Positions 38,501 through 57,828 of a stretch of 64,000 nucleotides of DNA are shown here, piece after piece. Under the pieces are notes generated by a model. The model made no database searches, was not told the origin of the DNA, and saw only the letters and a program-made list of their open reading frames with translations. Each line of letters starts with the position of its first letter. Position 1 is the first letter of the stretch. A program made the position numbers and the translations under genes. Source of the DNA: Diadema setosum (Eukaryota > Echinodermata > Echinoidea > Diadematoida > Diadematidae). The stretch covers positions 23,731,674 through 23,795,673 of the forward strand of contig NC_092700.1 of the NCBI RefSeq assembly GCF_964275005.1, written 5' to 3'.

Positions 38501-41500
38501 ATTGTAGATGCTAAAATTGGGCATCCTTTTGATTAAAACTGGAGAAGGAGAGACATGGCTACTGTATGTGTATTGTAGGCTCACTGTGCTATAAATAAGC
38601 ACTAGAGAGATCTTGACTTATGAATCCCGCTTAATCATTATCATAGAGTGAGGCCGCAGCATTGGTAACCCTAATGAGGCCATACTGGGCATTTCAGATA
38701 CAACACTTTTGAGACTGTCACTAAATATCACCATCATAAATCAATGAAGATAAAATGACATTGCAATTTGAACAAGAAATGCCAATACACTATACTGTAA
38801 TATGGTGCAACAACATTGGAGGATAAGTTCAATTTGTCATTATACTGCTCCAAACATAATAATACAATCACTACATGTATATCGAACATTAGGGCCTATT
38901 ACTTGTTTATTAATCAGGCCTAAATGTATGATGTATACATGTATGTGTAGGATACATACAATTTGTAACACATACAAGTGTATTGCTTTGAAAAAGCATA
39001 CAATTTTACACAAACATATGTTTTAATACCAAATTCACCAACTGCATCTCGTTTAATAGTCTTGTCAAATCAGTATATCGGTATGTGACATCAAACACTC
39101 ATGTTTCATGTTTTTACAGTTTGTCTGTAAATGATGGGTATGCAGACAGTATACATTGTACAATAAAACACAGTGTACTGTGATTCTTTAATAACATAAT
39201 AGGGCCTATGGAAGCACAAAGAATACAGTTGTATACATTGTATGGTTTCTATAGCATGATGACCTTTCAGGCAGTGCAAAGAAGTACATTGTACAATGTA
39301 CATGTATGAGAGATTGTGAGATTAGCCGTACTACACATCCTCACATGCTCTATCCAGTCTATCCCGGTGAGCGACCTCTAACGGCCCCCATCTCATCCTG
39401 TTTTCCCAATCAAACCATCCTCATCAAACCATCCGCATCACACCATCGTCGCATTCTCTTCATGGAAACAGTAGACTATCTCTCCTACCGCTAGCACATT
39501 CAATGGATAGTCTACAATTCAGACTCTTTATCACCACGGGAGAGCAGCAATCACTGGATAATTGAAAGTCTCTTCACATTACACGTGAATGCCTTTCATC
39601 CCTTGCTGACATTAATATTCCCCAGGGGCTGCCCGCTGGTCCACCCAAACAGACACAGCCATGCATCTCTTGCCTTGCTTGCATGAGCGGTGCATGTGAC
39701 AAGCTTTCCTGTCCATGTCAGAGCACAGAGGTACTTTCTAGGCATAGTCCATAGAATACATGTACCTCCTTGATCAGAGCAGCTGAAACAGCTGTTTGGA
39801 GTAGCTTGCTTGTCATTAAAAGTTGAAAGTTTAATTACTTTGCAAAAGACCATCATGTGTACCATCTATTTTGTGACACCCCTGGTATGCATGTCTGGTA
39901 AAATGAAACCAAAAAGTACATGACACAGTTCATATTGTGTAATGTAAAATCGTATAATTTCACAAAGTTGCTATCCATTGCTTTGATTTATTCTTCTATT
40001 GATATTCCAATAAAATACATTCTGATAAGTACATTGCTGAACTTCTCAGAATCTCAATAATTCGGCAGCACAAGAACTGATCACCAGTCGCACTTAAGTC
40101 CTTCTTAAGTTTAAGAACGGCTTTGTGAAACACCCCCCCCCCCTGTACTACACAAGGGATGAAAATGACAACATCTACATTGCAGCAACGCTACTTCACA
40201 GGGAAGATCTGTCAGTGTTCTATCTGATGTTTTCTTTCTTTTCATACACTTTGTAGATGATTCAAAGATACATCCAAAGGGATGATCTCATTCCAACTTT
40301 CACCTTTCATTATAAACAATTTCTCAATTCAAATAAAACATTAGGGAAAAGATAACAGAAACAAACATACACAACAATGAACATATTTGCCTGGTAAGCT
40401 TTCAGTAAAGAACACAGAAAAAATATATGATCGCAGTAATATCAAACATTATGTTTCTTCTTCGGCCAAAGAGGACAATTTGAAGAAAATTTCTGAAGAC
40501 ACTCTGTAAAGTATTGATATGATGTATTTGGAGGTAGTGTGAGAGCTGGACAAGCAGTTCAAAGTGACAGATTGCACTGGCATATCATCTGAAGAGGACT
40601 CATTTGAAGCTCTGTGACTTGAAGGGGATGAACCCCAAAAGATCTATTTGCAACATAACATTAAAGAATTCCAAAATTTACAATAATGCCTCTTTGGGAT
40701 AGAGGGATACAGAATATTTTTTTTTTTTAAAACCACACACACATGCAAAAACTAAATGAAACTATCACAAAAAAGAAAAGAAAAACAATGAAAACAAAAC
40801 ATAACAAAGAGAACAATTTGGTAGGCAAGAAACCACTCTCTACCTGAGCTCCTTTCCCTGCTCCAGGGGGTCCCACAAGCACGATGCAGAACTTGGGGCG
40901 TTCAGCCCCCTGCTGCTCCGGCCCTCCCTCGCCCTCTCGCAGGGCAGCTCCTGGATCCCGGCCCTCGATCGCCGCTGACATTATTAGAACGTCAAGTCAC
41001 AAATTATCTTCAGACTATCACAATTCTTTATCGTTCTCAGACGATCAGCGGAGACAATGTTATAAAGTCACTGAGCAATGCTTCCACGGAGCATCTGGAG
41101 TTTCAAATTGATGATGCAGCTCACACAACTCCCTTTTCTGGATTGTAACGGTGAACTCCGTCTGCAGGCTTTATCTGTTTATAAAGCAGGATTCAGATTT
41201 GGGGAGTGTTTGGTGGGGGGGGGGGGAGGATGGATATGCTGGAAGATAGGGGGAGTCATAAATTTACATCCACTCATTCGGATCTCTTCACGACAATCAC
41301 ATACAGTTGTTATTCCAGTTGCATTATTAGCAATTCAACGCAGCCACAAAGTGCAATTGAAACTAGCTGTAACACTGGACTCGCACATCACAAAGGAATC
41401 TGAATACACACTAAACCACAAAATACAAACTACGCTGAGAGTTATAGACCATCAGATCGTCGACCTCCTGAGGTCGTCATCCAGTCAAACAAAACCAAAG

Positions 41501-57828: not shown

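Follow-up and report, generated by a model that had tools for sequence, protein, structure and literature searches.

Alternative first exons usually alter a targeting tail or an untranslated leader, and in the adenylate kinase form AK1-beta an additional segment precedes a P-loop that is itself retained. According to a review that also names the AK2 splice variants AK2A to AK2D, a myristoylation part is added in AK1-beta and leads the enzyme to the plasma membrane (PMC2680645). AK2 has no targeting presequence and is imported by MIA40 with its conserved cysteines C40, C42 and C92 (PMC7527813). The same paper describes the first three residues of AK2, including the proline at position 3, as highly conserved across 163 species, and reports that DPP8/9 clip AK2 behind this proline, that the clipped cytosolic protein is degraded, and that less DPP8/9 clipping results in more AK2 and a dual location (PMC7527813). 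The N-terminal Ser of clipped human AK2 is regarded as destabilising, variants in which serine 4 is changed being more stable (PMC7527813); the clipped N-terminus of human AK2 is a target of IAP ligases and is protected by NatA acetylation (PMC12152192). At the other end of the protein, the tail of human AK2 binds AIFM1, and K, D, V and F are the conserved residues (PMC7617965). No report of an AK2 with a second P-loop exon was found in the open-licence literature with the few word choices searched. We also know of no case in which the AK2 N-degron is controlled by promoter choice instead of protease activity.

The window analysed here, that is the whole 64-kb stretch of Diadema setosum DNA, contains a complete AK2 gene on its minus strand, as determined by translation and exon joining (Table 1). 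A preliminary description of this DNA had proposed two first exons that each encode a P-loop and could join the same exon 2. Translation placed all three exons where they had been described, correct to the base, and the phase 0 ends, in-frame ATGs, GT donors and joining to exon 2 are all borne out, with the proximal donor being the weaker one. Either first exon can be spliced in frame to the one shared exon 2, and the frame is kept from both through exons 2, 3 and 4. The distal exon codes for 33 residues and leads to form A of 240 residues, and the proximal exon codes for 46 residues and leads to form B of 253 residues. All AK2 introns are GT-AG. The donor consensus score is 8/9 for the distal exon, 7/9 for exon 2 and 6/9 for both the proximal exon and exon 3, so the proximal donor is valid, weaker than the distal one and equal to that of exon 3.

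Table 1. Features of the AK2 locus (positions of the window; function of the upstream regions is putative)
Feature	Position	Strand	Remarks
Distal first exon (coding part), form A	57730-57828	(-)	phase 0; donor CAG/GTAAGA; P-loop at end
Proximal first exon (coding part), form B	40844-40981	(-)	phase 0; donor CAG/GTAGAG; 36 residues, then P-loop
AK2 exon 2	37794-38030	(-)	common to forms A and B; encodes AK2 core
AK2 exon 3	36701-36868	(-)	common to both forms
AK2 exon 4 with stop	35578-35796	(-)	common to both forms; C-terminus KDRVVFV
Probable main AK2 promoter and 5' leader	57829-58999	(-)	CpG-normal; function suggested by composition
Presumed 5' leader/promoter of proximal exon	40982-41240	(-)	function presumed; in-frame stop 40999, acceptor-like site 41238

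Both forms have a full-length match to the AK2/adk family. They passed the cut-off of 168 for TIGR01351 adk (form A, 254.3 bits; form B, 249.6 bits) and narrowly missed the cut-off of 268 for the bacterial equivalog NF001379 (263 and 257.6, respectively). Residues 13-111 of form A, encoded by exons 1 and 2, align with the AK2 chains of PDB (E ~1e-45), and form B, from residue 28 onwards to the C-terminus, aligns with the AK2 chains of 9gr0 (E 9.1e-102) and 2c9y (E 9.3e-102), both of which we take to be human. 2C9Y is the AK2 structure used in PMC7527813. In Pfam searches, the distal exon alone gave a weak ADK match (E 0.11) and the 46-residue proximal exon alone matched 0 families at E up to 1, while the proximal exon joined to exon 2 scored 128 bits against an ADK cut-off of 26.8.

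A 168-nt inverted repeat (34245-34412 and 34442-34609, 98% complementary, 29 nt apart) is located ~1 kb past the AK2 stop and looks like a MITE-type foldback element. On the plus strand, 17382-17675 and 25625-26116 hold an IF-2B domain (Pfam PF01008, E 5e-15) and a Lys-rich ORF for which no significant Pfam match was found; the two are probably parts of one gene, presumably EIF2B4-like, standing tail to tail with AK2. Within AK2 intron 1, an 89-nt unit with a palindromic core in its consensus is repeated 3.3 times at 47747-48045. Above the distal ATG there are two 15-nt minisatellite arrays of ~20 copies each (58988-59329 and 60369-60677), the nearer one at a distance of ~1.2 kb from the ATG, and a 280-nt tandem duplication (59528-60138) is located between them.

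The P-loop GxPGxGKG is exact in forms A and B. In-frame stops are present above both ATGs, at 57837 for the distal and 40999 for the proximal exon, with 2 and 5 open codons between, respectively. The proximal exon had been described as carrying a 30-residue leader, which agrees with the 30 residues counted to PK, and the count to GPPG is 36. A GC content of at least 65% over 138 nt occurs at only two places in the 64 kb, namely the proximal exon and exon 2, and the AK2 intron around the proximal exon has 37% GC. Four acceptor-like sites were detected upstream of the proximal exon, the best of them at 41238. Internal use of the proximal exon, spliced after the distal exon, was considered and is unlikely, because the frame above its ATG runs into the stop at 40999. 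At the level of sequence comparison, it is well supported that the two exons are homologous, carry a P-loop each and would be able to act as alternative first exons. We consider it probable that the proximal exon is a real and functional alternative first exon of one AK2 gene.

The regions above the two first exons differ in composition. The CpG observed/expected ratio in the probable main promoter is 0.65-1.36 in 200-nt steps; over 1 kb above the ATG it is 1.10 for the distal and 0.45 for the proximal exon, and between the two exons it is 0.38. The region above the proximal exon is CpG-poor like the gene body and does not share the CpG-normal composition seen above the distal exon; therefore, the proximal promoter, if real, would be of another kind, and the CpG profile supports the distal promoter only. 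No TATAWAW was present within 400 nt above either first exon; the region above the proximal exon contains a TATAAAC, which starts at 41183. An 8-codon upstream ORF starts at 41094, 113 nt above the proximal ATG, and could act as a brake on the translation of form B; upstream ATGs are present above the distal ATG too.

Gene-body methylation is common in invertebrate genomes, and in a sea urchin, genes with high exon or intron methylation were found to have transcript variants more often, including those with alternative TSS (PMC10294446), which speaks for a variant start. A role of body methylation in the suppression of spurious internal starts is cited in the same paper (PMC10294446) and speaks against one. 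If gene bodies are methylated in this genome as well, the distal start looks like a constant, unmethylated promoter. A real proximal start would then be located in a methylated gene body and is likely to be restricted. Most of the AK2 intron is CpG-poor, but the CpG observed/expected ratio reaches 0.96 at 55001-56000, ~1.7 kb behind the distal exon, and this stretch is possibly an unmethylated element.

The proximal exon might alternatively be a silent relic that still looks intact and is no longer transcribed or spliced; it would then be an exon 1 duplicated long ago, or the first exon left over from a tandem AK2 copy that was lost. The CpG-poor upstream region without a clear core promoter and the change of an otherwise nearly invariant P-loop residue would fit such a relic. 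However, the frame, the ATG with a stop above it, the P-loop and the donor of the proximal exon are all intact. In the codons for residues shared by both exons, 6 of the 8 fourfold sites differ beside kept amino acids, which argues for selection during most of the exon's history. At codon positions one and two, 1/20 sites differ in the ten P-loop codons (Fisher p 0.0005 against the fourfold sites) and 5/28 in all 14 aligned codons (p 0.005), in a test that comprises 10 to 14 codons only and a motif chosen because its amino acids match. Synonymous change beside kept amino acids is the pattern of long purifying selection and not of a dead copy, and in this sequence comparison it supports, but does not prove, a maintained exon.

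The remains of a lost copy were also looked for in the window. Among the matches listed in a sensitive tblastn search with the whole of form A, five known exons and weak matches were returned, and there was no other AK exon at E <0.6. The best weak match (E 0.61, 11537-11650) is outside the AK2 gene and contains a stop, and the best one listed between the two first exons had an E of 1.4 and 24% identity. Accordingly, the matches listed for the 16.7-kb stretch between the first exons included no remains of additional exons from a lost AK2 copy, which argues against the relic. The same search ruled out that the intron houses another complete AK gene, since nothing beyond the known exons and weak matches was among the matches listed. 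A recent segmental duplication was rejected on the basis of a same-strand blastn comparison of 3.1 kb around the distal exon with 3.2 kb around the proximal exon: the one convincing match was the 35-nt stretch of P-loop plus donor (80%, E 3e-4), and the 7 remaining matches had E of 2 or more. Taken with the intact features of the exon, we regard a silent relic as unlikely.

The residue after GKG is Thr in form A and Ala in form B. This Thr had been called near-invariant in the preliminary description, and the rarity of Ala in its place is supported in bacterial adenylate kinases. The best 80 of 517 confirmed relatives in genome contigs, picked by likeness to exon 2, were all bacterial, included no evident animal locus and were used solely for a P-loop census. 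The census pattern gave 84 matches in these 80 loci, 4 of which were not P-loops (LVP twice, EGK and KAA) and were left out, and there is one P-loop per locus. The triplet after the P-loop Lys was GTQ in 78 loci, GSL in 2 and GAQ in none, so that Ala was found in 0/80. In viral contigs, exon 2 had one distant related locus (L001, 42% identity) and exon 4 had none. Thr, or rarely Ser, after GKG is near-invariant in this census without being strictly defining, and form B, which has neither, is classed as AK2 on the shared exons, with the Thr as an exception.

The Thr to Ala change also bears on whether form B, if made, is a poor or inactive kinase that serves as a regulatory or decoy AK2, for example by AIFM1 binding, or whether the internal start lowers AK2 output. 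Ala at a site occupied by Thr or Ser in the 80 bacterial enzymes, the AIFM1-binding tail common to both forms and the short upstream ORF before the proximal ATG would fit such a reading, though the distal exon has upstream ATGs too. However, the Gly-rich loop and the Lys are exact in form B, and in human AK1 a change of Thr23 keeps activity and alters the ATP response, while changes of Arg and Lys lower activity >100-fold according to the text of PMC3537612. The tables of that paper give for T23V a specific activity of 250 versus 110, a Km for ATP of 12.91 versus 1.911 mM and a vmax of 1850 versus 141.7; one sentence of it instead names T23I and a loss of 4.5 to 6 fold when ATP is low, and these details are therefore not fully consistent (PMC3537612). 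By analogy with the AK1 change, form B is expected to be active with an altered ATP response. T23A in muscle adenylate kinase has reportedly been studied by Shi and Tsai. Overall, a form B that is made but is a poor or inactive kinase, or whose start lowers AK2 output, seems quite unlikely to us.

Across the six frames of the window, there are exactly two occurrences of the relaxed motif G.PG.GKG.Q, one at each first exon, and the motif was absent from 200 first-order Markov windows. Over a 13-residue stretch the proximal exon has 10/13 identities, and the best of 200 second-order Markov windows reached 8/13, in one window. A chance resemblance, in which a random GC-rich ORF happens to read as a P-loop, could be argued from the ~13 alike residues and the empty Pfam search of the exon alone, but it is extremely improbable and is refuted at any useful level by these simulations, in which 0/200 windows of each model reached the match, together with the homologous donor, the right phase and the right intron of the proximal exon.

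The two N-termini differ in features related to import and degradation. Form A starts with M-P-P and keeps the proline at position 3, a candidate DPP8/9 site, and form B starts with M-S-A-A and has no proline at this position. The pI is 4.7 and the net charge -2 in the N-terminal part of form B, compared with 8.3 and +1 in form A, and the values of form B speak against a classical mitochondrial presequence. Cys 42, 44 and 94 of form A, which are Cys 55, 57 and 107 of form B, are all encoded by exon 2 and align with human C40, C42 and C92; form B possesses one more cysteine, residue 32, shortly before the P-loop. The shared C-terminus KDRVVFV resembles KDLVMFI, the tail with which human AK2A binds AIFM1. 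Judged from these features, form B would keep the parts for import and docking and lose the proline of the degradation signal, and it is possibly a more cytosolic AK2. The published points fall on both sides of its predicted stability in the cytosol. Loss of Met from form B would expose Ser, and the destabilising effect of an N-terminal Ser (PMC7527813) argues against a cytosol-stable step, whereas acetylation is protective (PMC12152192), so the two papers point different ways. Cleavage by DPP8/9 may also take place after Ala, which would likewise speak against a stable form B.

On the basis of these comparisons we propose that the locus is one AK2 gene in which either of two first exons can be used. 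The distal, CpG-normal promoter would produce ordinary AK2, form A, through a splice over 19.7 kb, and a start inside intron 1 just above 40981 would produce form B through a splice over 2.8 kb. Form B must bring its own P-loop because the intron is located directly behind the P-loop codons; an internal start in intron 1 without such a P-loop would yield an AK2 without any, and the swap of the catalytic loop thus follows from the gene structure. It had been suggested that promoters swapping the P-loop itself, and not just a targeting leader, are unusual, which is fair, but the position of the intron makes the swap almost unavoidable here. The proximal exon may have originated by an old duplication of exon 1 or by capture of a like exon, with most synonymous sites changed since and the P-loop presumably retained by selection. 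Without the position-3 proline of the M-x-P signal for DPP8/9, form B may last longer in the cytosol, and it would still possess the MIA40 cysteines and the AIFM1 tail from the shared exons. With Ala in its P-loop, the enzyme would be active and its ATP response changed. Overall, one gene would supply an additional adenylate kinase that is cytosolic in part and probably limited to some tissue or stage. The full proposal, that promoter choice toggles the P-loop together with the DPP8/9 signal and thereby switches between an enzyme of the intermembrane space and one that resists degradation, is partly cytosolic and has a flatter ATP response, is tentative, and we consider it possible but doubtful.

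In comparison with known systems, this locus resembles the AK2 of the mitochondrial intermembrane space in exons 2-4, in form A from residue 13, in the three cysteines and in the KD.V.F tail. Human AK2-A and AK2-B differ at the C-terminus (PMC7527813), whereas it is the first exons that differ here. With respect to the DPP8/9-controlled N-degron, form A has M-P-P where the conserved start is M-A-P, with the position-3 proline in common (PMC7527813), in contrast to form B with its M-S-A-A. A question raised by the locus is whether AK2 can escape, through the choice of promoter, the protease-controlled degradation signal that excludes it from the cytosol. If the second form is made, one gene would give two enzymes that differ in the loop gripping ATP and in a tail possibly controlling location, and, since the exon boundary forces a change of the catalytic loop too, this would be a natural experiment on a residue of the P-loop that is nearly invariant. 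The likeness to AK1 and AK1-beta is that one adenylate kinase gene has two forms of different location; the difference is that the P-loop is kept in AK1-beta, whereas in this AK2 locus the P-loop itself is exchanged.
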